Source of the DNA: Mucilaginibacter agri
GTDB taxonomy: Bacteria; Bacteroidota; Bacteroidia; Sphingobacteriales; Sphingobacteriaceae
Direction of reading: 5' to 3'
Assembly: GCF_009928685.1 (NCBI RefSeq)
Contig: NZ_WWEO01000038.1
Coordinates: 124,001 to 188,000, forward strand
DNA: 64,000 nt
Shown here: positions 28,832-33,973 of the stretch, in pieces
Layout: each line of letters starts with the position of its first letter
Position numbering within the stretch: the first letter of the stretch is position 1
The notes under the pieces: generated by a model
The model's database searches: none
What the model was told of the DNA's origin: nothing
Seen by the model: only the letters and a program-made list of their open reading frames with translations
Position numbers and translations under genes: made by a program

Positions 28832-30436
28832 ATGAACCTGCTAACCCTGTTAATTTTTATACCGCTTTTATTCGGCTTACTCATTGCAGTGCTGCCTTCG
28901 GGATGGCGCAATAGCTTTAAATATATTACACTGCTGGCTACATTGGTGCAGTTGGGCATCAGCCTGCAAATGTATTTTCAGTTTAAAATCGGAGCGGCTA
29001 ATGCCGGCATTAATAACGAAGGTCAGTTTCAGTTTGTGCAGAAATTACCCTGGATCAGCCTCGATCTCGGTACCATGGGTAAAATGCAAATCGATTATTT
29101 TGTTGGAGTTGATGGGATATCGATCACCATGCTGGTGATGTCGGCTTTGGTTATGGTAGTTGCGGCTATCGCATCGTGGGAGATCACGAAGAACCTGAAG
29201 GGATTTTTTGTGCTGTTTCTGATGCTGGATATGGCTGTTTTCGGTGTGTTCTGCGCGTTGGATTTCTTTTTGTTCTACCTGTTTTATGAACTGATGTTGT
29301 TGCCGTTATATTTCCTTATCGGTATGTGGGGCGGGGCAAGGCGCGAATATGCGGCTATCAAATTCTTCTTATATACTTTATTTGGCTCGGTGTTTATGTT
29401 GCTGGTGATGGTAGGTTTATACTTGTCGGTGAAAGATCCGGCTACGGGCAGCCACACGTTCAACATCATCCAGATGATGAACCCGGCAAACTACGATGCC
29501 AATTCGATATTCTCGGTAGTAAATCATCAAACCATATTTGGCTTCCCGGCACGCACGGTAGGGTTTATCGTGCTTTTTGTGGCGTTTGCTATTAAAGTTC
29601 CGGTAGTGCCTTTACATACCTGGTTGCCAGATGCACACGTAGAAGCACCCACACCAGTGTCTATTATTCTGGCGGGGGTATTGTTGAAGATTGGTGGTTA
29701 CGGAATTATCCGGATCTGCGCAGGTATCTTTCCCGATGTTGCCGTATCCGGAAGCTTTGTGATAGGCTTGCTCGGCGTGATTTCTATCATTTATGGGGCA
29801 CTTAACGCCCTTGCACAACGGGATCTGAAACGTTTGATTGCTTACTCATCCGTATCGCACATGGGCTTTGTGCTGTTGGGAATTGCCTCTTTAACTGCCG
29901 AAGGTATCAGTGGAGCAGTAATGCAGATGGTAAGCCACGGCTTCTTGTCGTCAATGTTATTCTTCCTGGTAGGAGTTATCTACACCCGAGTGCACGATCG
30001 AGATATCTATAACTTCCGCGGACTGGGCACCATGATGCCGCAGTTTACTGTGTTTGTGATGATCGGTTTTTTCGCTTCTCTGGGTTTGCCCGGCTTTTCG
30101 GCATTTATTGCAGAGGCTTTCACATTAGCAGGAGCATTTAAATCGACTTCAATAAATGGCTTGTTGCCGCATTGGATGGCCGCTTGCGGAGCGCTGGGTA
30201 TCCTGCTTAGCGCGTGCTATTTCTTGTGGACATTGCAACGTATGTTCTTCGGTACCGAGCGCCTAAAAGGCGGTGAGCAATGGAAACACGCCTTAAAAGA
30301 TCTTAATTGGCGCGAAAAATCGGCGCTTGTGCCCCTGGCTCTAATGGCTTTGCTGTTGGGTGTTATGCCATCGCTGGTGTTCGGCAAAATCAATGATTCG
30401 GTACTGGCATTAGTAAGCTTTTTACAGCATAAATAA
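28832..30436 (+). CDS. nuoM: NADH-quinone oxidoreductase subunit M
   Basis: A second antiporter-like subunit; 534 residues, about 14 helices. It shows LFYELMLLPLYFLIGMWGG (with the channel glutamate), HTWLPDAHVEAPTPVSIILAG and LKRLIAYSSVSHMGFV. It begins 6 nt after nuoL. The expected next gene, nuoN, is displaced by about 2 kb by an unrelated gene. Confidence 0.95.
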   Translation: MNLLTLLIFIPLLFGLLIAVLPSGWRNSFKYITLLATLVQLGISLQMYFQFKIGAANAGINNEGQFQFVQKLPWISLDLGTMGKMQIDYFVGVDGISITMLVMSALVMVVAAIASWEITKNLKGFFVLFLMLDMAVFGVFCALDFFLFYLFYELMLLPLYFLIGMWGGARREYAAIKFFLYTLFGSVFMLLVMVGLYLSVKDPATGSHTFNIIQMMNPANYDANSIFSVVNHQTIFGFPARTVGFIVLFVAFAIKVPVVPLHTWLPDAHVEAPTPVSIILAGVLLKIGGYGIIRICAGIFPDVAVSGSFVIGLLGVISIIYGALNALAQRDLKRLIAYSSVSHMGFVLLGIASLTAEGISGAVMQMVSHGFLSSMLFFLVGVIYTRVHDRDIYNFRGLGTMMPQFTVFVMIGFFASLGLPGFSAFIAEAFTLAGAFKSTSINGLLPHWMAACGALGILLSACYFLWTLQRMFFGTERLKGGEQWKHALKDLNWREKSALVPLALMALLLGVMPSLVFGKINDSVLALVSFLQHK

Positions 30437-30564
30437 TTAATTGTGTTAAATCGTAATTTCATTTATGGAATAGCACCAATTGATGCATCATGTATTTGTT
30501 CAGCTTCAATATTAAATAAGAAGCATGGCCAATTAACAGAATGTATTTATTTAAGCTTAAAACC

Positions 30565-32451
30565 ATGACCAGAAAATTATTACTTATCACATTTTGCTCC
30601 CTGTTTACTTTTCTAACAGCGCAGGCAAGCGATCAACAAAAGGTTTCATCTAAAATACAGCACGTGGTTGTGTTTTTAAACGGCGCACAAGTTACACGAA
30701 ATGCCAGTGTAAGTATACCAGCAGGTAATTCGGTGGTGTCTTTCGGAGGGATATCGCCGGATATCGATATGCAAAGTTTGCAGATAAAATCTGGAGGCGA
30801 TTTTACCATACTGTCCGTTAACCACGAGTTCGATTATCTAAACAAGCAGGTTCAACAAAAGCATGTTGAGGAACTGTTAGCTCAGCAAAAGCTGATAAGA
30901 GATAAAATAGACCTTCAAAGTAACGCGCTTAACGTTTATACCGAGGAGCAGAATATGCTGCTTAAAAACCAGACGGTAAGCGGGCAAAACGCAAATCTCG
31001 ATGTGCTGAGATTGAAACAAGCGCTCGATTTTCAAACCCTGCGTTTGACAGAAATTAAGAAAAAAGAACAGAGTGTAAACGACGAAATTGCATTGCTGAA
31101 TAAACAATTGCAGCAGTACAATAAACAAATAGCAGAAGTAAATAAGGGAGGGGCTAAACCTACCAGTAACATACTGGTAACGGTTTCGGCAAAAGCTGCA
31201 TCGCAATCTGCATTTACGTTTACTTACGTAGTTAAAAATGCAAGCTGGTACCCAACTTATGATATTCGTGCAAAAAACATCAATAGCCCTATACAGGTAG
31301 CCTATAAAGCCAACGTAGCACAACAATGCGGCGAGGATTGGAACAATATTAAGCTTACCCTTTCTACCGGTAATCCGTCTGTAAACGGAAGTAAACCCGA
31401 GCTTACGCCTAATTATTTAAATATGGGAATGATGTATGCCGATAAAGCAGCCAGCATTACCAATGTAACAGGAAGAGTTTGCGACGAACAGGGGCAGGGG
31501 CTTCCGGGTGTAGCAATAAAGATAAAGGGCAGTTCCATTGGCACAGTTGCGGATCAGTCTGGATTTTATAGTGTTCAGATTCCGCAAGGAGGGCAACAAG
31601 TGTTAGTTTATTCTTTTATTGGTTACCAGGCACAGGAATTACCGGTTAATTCGACAATTATAAATACTTTTTTAACGCCGGCTATAAATCAACTAAATGA
31701 GGTTGCTGTTGTCGGATACGGTACTGAGGCAAAAAGAGATGTTATTGCTCAATCACTTTCAGGTCGTGTTGGCGGTGTATACATTAGGGGGGCAAACTTG
31801 CTTCAAACAACCCCGGTTTTGGTTCAGCAAAACGAGAACCAGACTAACGTTGAATTTAATATCGATAACCCGTATAGCATACCGAGCGACGGTAAACAAT
31901 ACCTAGTGGAGATTAACCAGGTTAGCATACCGGCCGATTATGAGTATTTTACTGCTCCAAAATTAAGTACAGATGTGTTTTTAACTGCTAAATTAGCCAA
32001 CTGGAACCAATACAGCTTTTTATCGGGTGAAGCCAACCTGTTTTTTGAGGGCACGTTTATCGGTAAATCATTGTTGGATACCCGGTCTACAGCCGATACC
32101 TTGAATCTATCTTTAGGGGTCGATAAGAGTATCATTGTAACGCGGGAACTACAGACTAAGGTAACAGAACGCCAAAGCTTGCTGGGCTCTAATAAAAAGG
32201 AAACACGCGATTGGTTAATAACAGTTAAAAACCGTAAATCGCAACCTGTAAACTTGCTGGTTCAGGATCAGGTGCCGGTATCGCAAAACTCGTCGATTGA
32301 GGTTGAAACTCAAAACTTGTCGGGTGGTAAAACGGATGCCAATACAGGGCTGGTTTCGTGGAATGTTAATTTGAACCCGCAAAACGACAAGAAGTTAAAT
32401 TTAAAGTACCAGGTGAAATATCCTAAAAGTCAATCTGTAATAGTACAATAA
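30565..32451 (+). CDS. DUF4139 (MuiA-like) exported protein with inserted carboxypeptidase-regulatory / SusC-like segment
   Basis: A 628-residue exported protein placed between nuoM and nuoN. Signal peptide 1-20 (from ATG 30565; an ATG at 30541 adds 8 residues). An N-terminal DUF4140-like strand region (30-90) is followed by a coiled coil (95-200) and then the first part of a DUF4139 beta domain (WYPTYDIRAK near 240). At about 300-380 sits a complete CarboxypepD_reg-like domain (VTGRVCDEQGQGLPGVAIKI, GTVADQSGFYSV). Next comes LNEVAVVGYGTEAKRDV, the wording that precedes the plug of SusC-type TonB-dependent receptors, and a short SGRVGGVYIRGA. DUF4139 then resumes to the end. MuiA-type proteins are linked to mucoidy, but function here is unknown. 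The stop is 7 nt before nuoN, so they share a transcript. Confidence 0.85.
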   Translation: MTRKLLLITFCSLFTFLTAQASDQQKVSSKIQHVVVFLNGAQVTRNASVSIPAGNSVVSFGGISPDIDMQSLQIKSGGDFTILSVNHEFDYLNKQVQQKHVEELLAQQKLIRDKIDLQSNALNVYTEEQNMLLKNQTVSGQNANLDVLRLKQALDFQTLRLTEIKKKEQSVNDEIALLNKQLQQYNKQIAEVNKGGAKPTSNILVTVSAKAASQSAFTFTYVVKNASWYPTYDIRAKNINSPIQVAYKANVAQQCGEDWNNIKLTLSTGNPSVNGSKPELTPNYLNMGMMYADKAASITNVTGRVCDEQGQGLPGVAIKIKGSSIGTVADQSGFYSVQIPQGGQQVLVYSFIGYQAQELPVNSTIINTFLTPAINQLNEVAVVGYGTEAKRDVIAQSLSGRVGGVYIRGANLLQTTPVLVQQNENQTNVEFNIDNPYSIPSDGKQYLVEINQVSIPADYEYFTAPKLSTDVFLTAKLANWNQYSFLSGEANLFFEGTFIGKSLLDTRSTADTLNLSLGVDKSIIVTRELQTKVTERQSLLGSNKKETRDWLITVKNRKSQPVNLLVQDQVPVSQNSSIEVETQNLSGGKTDANTGLVSWNVNLNPQNDKKLNLKYQVKYPKSQSVIVQ

Positions 32452-32458
32452 AGAAATA

Positions 32459-33973
32459 ATGAACGATCTGTTACCATCTCTATCCTTACAGTTGAGCAAT
32501 ACTATAGGTAGTCTTCCATATTTTAATCCGGAGATTTACCTGGCTGTGCTTTTCTTATTGGTGCTGGTAACAGATCTTATTTTTGGTCGTCAGTCTGCCT
32601 GGATCTGCCGCACTATTGCGATAGCCGGCTTATTTATTGTACTGTTTAAAGATCTGCAACAAATAGGCTTATTACTGCAACATGCAGATGGTTCGGTGTT
32701 TTTGTTTAATAACATGTTACTGCTGCACAAGCTGGCAGTATCGTTTAAGTTGATCATCGACTTTTTTGCCATCATCCTCATTGTTTACTTCGGGCTTGAT
32801 AAACGTTTGAAAGAACACCAAAAGGGCTTATCGGATTTATATACCATTGTAGTGGCATCTGTATTGGGCCTGCATTTAATGGTGATGTCGGTAAACCTGT
32901 TGGCGGTTTATCTGGCTATAGAGATGGTTTCGTTGGCATCGTACCTGTTGGCCGCCTATCGTTCTGAAAATGGTTTCAGTGCCGAAGCTGGTTTAAAATA
33001 TGTGTTGTTTGGCGCGGTAGCGTCGGCTATAATGCTATATGGTATATCGCTTTTATATAGCCTTACCGGTACTTTGGGTTATTTTGATGCCAATTTGGTG
33101 CCGGGACTTATTGCTGCTAATCCGGCTATAGTGTCTGTAGCAATTATCCTTACACTGGTCGGCATAGGCTTCAAATTATCTTTTATACCGATGCACTTTT
33201 GGGTGCCAGATGTTTATCAGGGAGCGCCAACGCCCGTTACGGCTTATTTATCTACACTGCCTAAGATTGCTGGCTTTGCTTTATTGATTAATCTACTTAC
33301 ACCATTTGTATTTAATACGCATTGGGTAGCTTTTGACTTTAGGTTGTTTTTGTCTGTTATAGGAATTATTACCATGATAGCGGGGAATTTTGCAGCCGTA
33401 TGGCAGAAGAATATTAAACGCATACTGGCTTATTCAAGCATTGGGCATACCGGTTTTGCGCTGATGGCTGTAGCTACTTTTTCGCAGCAGGGGGTATCTG
33501 CTTTGACATTTTATTTGGCGGTATACGTGTTCGCCAACATCGGCGCGCTTATGTTGGCTTCTTATTTTGCAGATTTAACAGGTGCCGAGGATCTGGATGC
33601 CTATCGCGGATTGGGCTTAAAATATCCATTAGCTAGTGTAAGCTTTGTAATGATCCTTATCTCTTTAACCGGCTTACCTGTAAGTGCGGGTTTTAACGGT
33701 AAATTATTAGTGTTCTCTTCCGTGTATTCGGTTTATCAGCAAAATCATAATATTTGGTTGCTTTTGCTTATGGTTACAGGAGCTTTAACAACCGTGGTGT
33801 CGTTATTTTACTATATTAAGATTCCATTATACCTGTTTTTAAAGAAACCGGCGGCAGAAACTGAGGTTGCAGAAACTTCATCTGCAAATTGGCTGCTTAT
33901 TATTTCTTTCGTTTTGGCGCTTGTGGTGCTTTTGTTCGGAATATTCCCCACTTATTTAGTAGGCTTATTGTAA
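32459..33973 (+). CDS. nuoN: NADH-quinone oxidoreductase subunit N
   Basis: The third antiporter-like subunit; 504 residues, about 14 helices. Visible family text is AIEMVSLASYLLAAYR with the channel glutamate, GFKLSFIPMHFWVPDVYQGAPTPV near 240, and IKRILAYSSIGHTGFALM near 320. It ends the complex I block; an A+T-only hairpin follows. Confidence 0.95.
   Translation: MNDLLPSLSLQLSNTIGSLPYFNPEIYLAVLFLLVLVTDLIFGRQSAWICRTIAIAGLFIVLFKDLQQIGLLLQHADGSVFLFNNMLLLHKLAVSFKLIIDFFAIILIVYFGLDKRLKEHQKGLSDLYTIVVASVLGLHLMVMSVNLLAVYLAIEMVSLASYLLAAYRSENGFSAEAGLKYVLFGAVASAIMLYGISLLYSLTGTLGYFDANLVPGLIAANPAIVSVAIILTLVGIGFKLSFIPMHFWVPDVYQGAPTPVTAYLSTLPKIAGFALLINLLTPFVFNTHWVAFDFRLFLSVIGIITMIAGNFAAVWQKNIKRILAYSSIGHTGFALMAVATFSQQGVSALTFYLAVYVFANIGALMLASYFADLTGAEDLDAYRGLGLKYPLASVSFVMILISLTGLPVSAGFNGKLLVFSSVYSVYQQNHNIWLLLLMVTGALTTVVSLFYYIKIPLYLFLKKPAAETEVAETSSANWLLIISFVLALVVLLFGIFPTYLVGLL

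Follow-up and report, generated by a model that had tools for sequence, protein, structure and literature searches.

Why should a protein of the MuiA family, with no transport barrel, carry the N-terminal end of a SusC-type transporter in the middle of its DUF4139 domain? The question is raised by a single gene in the 64,000 nucleotides of Mucilaginibacter agri DNA analyzed here (contig NZ_WWEO01000038.1, positions 124,001 to 188,000; hereafter the window). We propose, by analogy with SusC transporters and with a probability of about 0.5, that the insert is a TonB-docking tether grafted onto a non-transporter, and that the protein is a TonB client without a barrel. The features of the locus are the following.

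28832 to 30436, + strand: nuoM, the upstream neighbor (TIGR01972, 4.3e-162)
30541 to 32451, + strand: whole open reading frame of 636 residues, a MuiA-family DUF4140-DUF4139 protein with a SusC N-terminal insert
30565 to 30630, + strand: probable Sec signal peptide, residues 9-30, without a lipobox (by eye from the sequence)
30664 to 30957, + strand: DUF4140, residues 42-139 (Pfam)
30838 to 31146, + strand: long helical hairpin, residues 100-202 (AlphaFold2 model)
31216 to 31395, + strand: part of DUF4139 preceding the loop, residues 226-285 (Pfam, AlphaFold2 model)
31462 to 31692, + strand: inserted NTE domain, CarbopepD_reg_2, residues 308-384 (Pfam, NCBIfam, AlphaFold2, fold match to 9hfj)
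31693 to 31719, + strand: TonB box LNEVAVVGY, residues 385-393 (position relative to DEVVVTG of Bt1763; conservation)
31720 to 31815, + strand: disordered tether past the box, residues 394-425, including LSGRVGGVYIRGA (AlphaFold2, alignment)
31756 to 31794, + strand: LSGRVGGVYIRGA, shortened SusC signature and plug start (comparison with SusC proteins of the host)
31816 to 32427, + strand: part of DUF4139 past the loop, residues 426-629 (Pfam, AlphaFold2 model)
32459 to 33973, + strand: nuoN, 7 nt downstream of the gene (TIGR01770, 7.3e-103)

The likely start of the frame is its second methionine (ATG at 30565), the same coordinate as in the original prediction. DUF4140 was identified at residues 42-139 (Pfam; E = 3e-20, 72.9 bits against a cut-off of 27) and DUF4139 at residues 226-629 (E = 6e-58, 196.4 bits against 31.8), the latter being split, with profile positions 2-205 stretched across 404 residues. 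The MuiA family model TIGR02231 was matched with an E-value of 8e-87 (NCBIfam; 292.1 bits against 112.6), and the protein is the sole, single-copy DUF4139 match in the M. agri genome. Judging from its Sec signal, it is probably exported to the periplasm; a lipobox-like pattern occurs in 5 of the 212 proteins examined, and the window protein is not among these. The original prediction was right that a TonB receptor barrel is missing. The frame terminates with DUF4139, without a SusC/RagA outer-membrane barrel, and a Pfam search up to an E-value of 10 (effectively about 0.1) returned neither a barrel family nor Plug, the plug domain of a SusC/RagA transporter. With the whole model as query, the DUF4139 body yielded weak fold matches only, to AP-2 mu and MacA chains.

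Within the split DUF4139 match, the HMM search placed CarbopepD_reg_2 at residues 309-390 (E = 2.2e-16, 60.1 bits against 32.2), in agreement with the regulatory domain previously read from the letters. TIGR04056, a 981-position SusC model, aligns through its positions 2-95 with residues 308-402 (NCBIfam; 2.6e-23, 82.4 bits against a cut-off of 368.25); because the match is confined to these positions, the insert corresponds to the SusC N-terminus, to which it had also been likened. An AlphaFold2 model of the protein was built from 59 sequences (mean pLDDT 82), in which pLDDT is 86-95 in each block of ten residues between 311 and 380 and below 50 at residues 282-302 and 384-425. Its best PDB match is 9hfj, the NTE of the dextran SusC BT3090 (Foldseek E = 4.9e-6, TM 0.88 by target; VIA Z 14.3, rmsd 1.5 over 79 residues), followed in rank by the transthyretin-like domains of carboxypeptidases. 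The NTE of Bt1763 (6ytc) aligned with a Z of 10.7 and an rmsd of 4.6 over 75 residues. The insert is predicted to fold as a regulatory domain, as had been supposed, and by its CarbopepD_reg_2 sequence and modeled Ig-like fold it is a SusC-type NTE. What the NTE does in SusC is described as unknown in the Bt1763 study; Bt1763 without it gave no growth in 24 h, which the authors interpret as a possible biogenesis defect, and they suggest the NTE as a selector of TonB paralogs (PMC7782687).

Directly past the NTE lies an EVVV-type segment, LNEVAVVGYG (residues 385-394), within the low-pLDDT stretch and flexible in the model. It occupies the same place as 82-DEVVVTG-88, the TonB box that follows the NTE in Bt1763; there, the box is reported as unstructured in the isolated NTE, and deletion of 81-VDEVVV-86 or its change to alanine produced a growth defect on levan like that of a transporter that does not function (PMC7782687). 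The original prediction had quoted two peptides from this region (residues 385-401 and 407-418) as the segment that links the regulatory domain of SusC proteins to the plug. This is indeed a SusC segment, but it is not a mere linker, as it holds the TonB box and, past the box, LSGRVGGVYIRGA. The counterparts in SusC proteins of the host, LxGKVAGV and IRxRGxxS, are spaced further apart, and in this comparison LSGRVGGVYIRGA reads as an eroded plug start with its middle missing. LxGRVAGV and IRGxSS plug pieces persist in predicted disordered loops of DUF4139 proteins, often joined without the middle, and TonB docking alone does not explain this persistence.

Conservation is highest where the model is least ordered. 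Over the 59 aligned sequences, which came from a scan favoring the window type (a bias that we see no reason to expect to benefit the box more than the NTE), conservation amounts to 3.09 bits per column in the box (385-393), 2.12 in the NTE and 1.16 in the post-box tether, with 2.83 and 2.50 for the two DUF4139 halves. No other part of the loop is as well conserved as the box, even though the box is disordered in the model.

The spread of the insert was surveyed in 395 evenly drawn Bacteroidota genomes, 134 of which have DUF4139 at an E-value up to 0.001. The prevalence set comprised the 90 matches, in 86 genomes, with an E-value below 1e-30, to the exclusion of weaker ones (E = 4e-11 and worse), and the scan of this set covered the loop between the two DUF4139 halves. 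CarbopepD_reg_2 matches this loop in 29 of the 90 proteins, Plug in 8 and TIGR04056 in 36. The TonB-box pattern was found in 17/29 NTE loops and 12/61 NTE-less loops, as against 0/90 remainders of the same proteins and, after shuffling, a mean of 0.10 proteins in the NTE set and 0.06 in the NTE-less set; together with the E-values, these counts show that the insert is not due to chance. The idea of a single unusual transplant therefore has to be given up, since the NTE occurs in 29/90 strong matches. Its position, which the original prediction had asked about, is the same loop throughout. Of the two outcomes named there as grounds for abandoning the idea, one was found, in that the insert is normal for about a third of the sample; the other, an insert that does not fold as a regulatory domain, was not.

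Other relatives carry more or less of the SusC end than the window protein does. Plug scores over its cut-off inside DUF4139 in four of the five full-length relatives scanned whole, with the NTE in L100 and L105 and without it in L013 and L020; in the fifth, L132, it scores below (19.3 bits against 23.9). L132 has a longer insert, a 297-residue loop with an NTE and the weak plug match. In the model of another NTE-plus-plug variant, L215, the plug part has a pLDDT of about 50-66. The same loop can be empty or can hold the box only, NTE and box, plug, or NTE, box and plug, and its length ranges from 63 to 297 residues among 132 proteins. The plug in other members lay beyond the view of the original prediction, as did the loss of the NTE with the box kept, described below. 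Among the matches listed, the NTE was present by HMM in 80/80 named loci, whose ranking by similarity to an NTE-bearing query kept them from being used for prevalence, and the relatives from Mucilaginibacter are 57-67% identical to the window protein. A scrambled motif order was considered and rejected: by strict patterns, 17 of 18 loops with the box, GRVAGV and IRGxxS have them in SusC order, so no weight is put on it. The one exception is L069, in which the signature piece precedes the box.

A tree of 132 DUF4139 proteins was built without the loop columns. By parsimony, the presence of the NTE requires 14 changes, and starred branches force at least 7 for the state of NTE without plug. Any detected SusC piece requires 21 changes, 12 of them forced, although the count of 21 is too high because the strict box pattern behind it misses loops with the core (L044, L047 and L087). 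The NTE-bearing lineages are separate on the tree, as is one with plug or box and no NTE, so that the SusC pieces were either received more than once or left by differential trimming of a large ancient insert; the tree cannot tell gain from loss. Twelve NTE-less proteins that lie within two NTE clades (family f24, and genus g1, taken as Mucilaginibacter) were chosen from the tree by eye, and 10 of them have the box core LxEVVV; in 2000 shuffles of the nested set, the mean number with the core was 0.07 and never more than 2. The two without the core are L022 and L064, and L113, a long branch of the f24 clade with LDELVV, was excluded from the set. Three of three further NTE-less Mucilaginibacter proteins also have the core (LNEVVV, LGEVVV and LAEVAI, two of them read by eye), a partly independent test given their 55-86% identity to earlier members. 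Among other NTE-less proteins it was found in only 7 of 73. The NTE can go while the box stays. A short peptide that is conserved in predicted disorder and kept after its folded neighbor is lost looks like a docking motif.

Recent copying from SusC genes of the host is likewise not supported. Twenty of the 43 signature matches in the genome were compared (19 from among the 34 that exceed the cut-off, plus one that does not), and the longest shared DNA words were 8-13 nt, likewise in a control stretch of the gene, so the insert was not freshly copied from those 20 genes. In a poorly resolved NTE tree (10 of 135 inner branches starred), the split between DUF4139 NTEs and the 20 host SusC NTEs took 2 changes versus 19.0 when shuffled, with two SusC NTEs falling among the DUF4139 ones.

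The gene itself is an optional cassette. Same-strand nuoM and nuoN flank it in 38 of 212 loci (flanks of 1.5 or about 4 kb), namely all 23 coded g1, all 14 titled Mucilaginibacter and one MAG (L151), some of the 38 being the same genome under two identifiers. It was found in 36 of 61 Mucilaginibacter genomes (32 of the 49 with a completeness of 90% or more) and not found in 25 (17 of the 49). The distance from the gene to the nuoN match is 24-39 nt in 35 of the 36 carriers and 202 nt in G414. In at least 9 of the 25 other genomes, a nuoM-like match directly neighbors nuoN (at 62-85 nt in eight, 187 in one), and G471, whose nuoN is the closest to that of the window among the matches listed (81%), is yet without the DUF4139 gene. 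Its absence from 25 of 61 genomes of the genus makes it dispensable, and we regard it as a dispensable cassette between nuoM and nuoN in Mucilaginibacter. Outside this genus, no conserved gene partner was seen among the recurrent neighbors of the 212 loci; ten neighbor-cluster representatives could be named, each confined to some lineages, and these include RsmB, a class I tRNA synthetase, an ATP synthase subunit, an ABC-F-like protein, an ECF sigma factor, two-component proteins and NeuB.

SusC pieces are also used by other barrel-less proteins of the host. We read all eight open frames under 950 residues with a SusC-signature match: L135, L137 and L138 look by eye like ordinary receptors, and five have no barrel. 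One of the five is an M56 (BlaR1-type) peptidase that has TonB_C and ends in a SusC plug piece (L133:382-2103, +). The other four, which we take to be macroglobulin-like (MG2 scores over the cut-off in one), have a SusC plug match (L134:12-2012, +; L134:2162-4585, +; L136:2320-4095, -; L139:48-2360, +). Three of the five have Plug above its cut-off. A further protein, L273:1339-2622 (+), lies beside an ECF sigma factor and has a TonB box, GRVEGV, an NTE, a second TonB box and TonB_C. Matches to it (E up to 1e-20, some partial) occur in 35 of the 37 genomes of the genus within a draw of 60 genomes and in one other genome; among 20 loci of this family that were read, 18 have the TonB box and 18 an LxGRVxGV-type piece by a broad pattern. 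It resembles the window protein in having NTE and TonB box without a barrel and differs in that it lacks DUF4139 and has a TonB C-terminal domain of its own. That NTE, box and TonB_C share a single chain suggests that they act in concert. There are seven TonB_C matches in the host genome, two of them in the barrel-less L133 and L273, which leaves room for paralog choice.

As we picture it, a MuiA-family protein, probably periplasmic, would expose a SusC docking end on its DUF4139 loop, an Ig-like NTE followed by the flexible box. The box would pair as an extra strand with the TonB C-terminal domain, as the SusC literature describes for transporters, and the NTE may choose among TonB paralogs. 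TonB-ExbB-ExbD would then serve the DUF4139 protein as an anchor or a source of pull, to mechanical or regulatory ends. The original prediction had supposed recognition by the same periplasmic partner as in SusC proteins; as the most conserved segment is the TonB box, the part of SusC that contacts the partner, that partner can by analogy be named as TonB, with the proviso that the insert is not a single odd transplant. A second DUF4139 lineage, which has no NTE but box or plug pieces in the same loop, favors TonB docking. Counting against it are the box core in only 7/73 proteins outside the clades, its loss in 2/12 nested ones, the kept LxGRVAGV and IRGxSS pieces, the dispensability of the gene and the lack of a TonB-pointing neighbor outside the genus.

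The architecture is built from known parts, and we have not found it described in the literature searched. SusC/RagA transporters (TIGR04056, e.g. Bt1763) share the NTE, the box LxEVVVxGYG and the signature start in the same order, whereas the window protein has no barrel or plug core and bears the module inside another domain. With the MuiA family (TIGR02231) it shares TIGR02231, DUF4140 and DUF4139 matches over their cut-offs and, in the model, a helical hairpin between the domains; it departs from that family in the splitting of DUF4139 by the SusC module, as seen in 29/90 sampled Bacteroidota proteins. We take MuiA of P. aeruginosa to be a DUF4139 protein from the family name. It has been linked to swarming, biofilm and envelope stress in the portions of two papers used here (PMC7603352, PMC10418997), one of them a review that calls for its mucoidy-inhibiting role to be re-evaluated (PMC10418997); by analogy, these roles may or may not carry over to the window protein. 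TonB-dependent colicins offer a TonB box on a non-transporter (PMC11658791, in part), but they are imported toxins, whereas the window protein is a product of its own genome and has an NTE.

The main rival to TonB docking holds that the beta-barrel assembly machinery uses the NTE as a handle, with the DUF4139 protein riding on or regulating BAM and the box-containing segment acting like the BamP loop in the BamA seam. We assume that chain E of the extended F. johnsoniae BAM complex is BamP, which fold and model matches suggest may have an NTE-like domain followed by a loop. Our model matches this chain in Foldseek (prob 1.00, E = 1.8e-3), although with an rmsd of 12.6 over 136 columns. The BamP model NF053692 matches 3 of the 90 loops at an E-value up to 0.001 and, at 23 bits and so well short of its cut-off of 230, the NTE part of L273, but it is absent from the NCBIfam matches of the window protein at an E-value up to 1. 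According to the part of the F. johnsoniae work drawn on here, BamP binds BamD and the BamA POTRA domains through its folded domains, and its loop enters the BamA barrel (PMC12611786); if one of those folded domains is NTE-like, as the fold and model hints have it, such binding, and the possible biogenesis defect seen by the Bt1763 authors on NTE loss, would speak for a BAM handle. Docking through a folded domain predicts that the NTE should outlive the box, and the reverse is seen, so BAM docking fits less well and we consider it improbable.

The insert might instead serve no purpose, an old graft from abundant SusC N-termini that decays in a loop accepting insertions. The hypervariable loop length (63-297 residues), the pieces of all sizes from a motif to NTE plus plug, and the 21 changes for any detected SusC piece, an over-count from the strict pattern, are what such tolerance would leave. 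Yet the box is conserved like the DUF4139 core while its flanks are not, and it is retained past NTE loss far beyond the shuffles; the sequence words shared with the 20 host SusC genes point to no fresh copying, and the DUF4139 NTEs stand largely apart from those of the host in the poorly resolved tree. A functionless graft is thus unlikely. Far less probable still is structural self-use, in which the EVVV strand would pair with the protein's own DUF4139 sheet or with another copy of the same protein. The segment is strand-like in character, and in the model its tether holds it beside beta sheets, but AlphaFold2 leaves residues 384-425 unpaired with a pLDDT under 50, and the same box recurs in an unrelated host protein, the L273 family.

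TonB docking remains our preferred reading, and a broader version of it can be offered only tentatively, as we think it more doubtful than true: that SusC N-terminal pieces are a portable TonB-docking code of several barrel-less envelope proteins of the Bacteroidota for work other than import, with the DUF4139 protein as one client, whose expression would be linked to proton motive force supply through its position in the nuo operon of Mucilaginibacter. A search of open-licence papers recognized, among its best-ranked matches, none that deals with plug proteins lacking a barrel or with this architecture. The TonB review, in the part consulted, speaks of transporters, imported colicins and phages, and one exported protease (PMC11658791). 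With an NTE and a TonB box but no barrel in a single-copy, dispensable protein, docking is separated from transport. If TonB is bound, it would serve the cell's own non-transporter proteins, which suggests that proteins other than transporters may plug into the TonB energy system.
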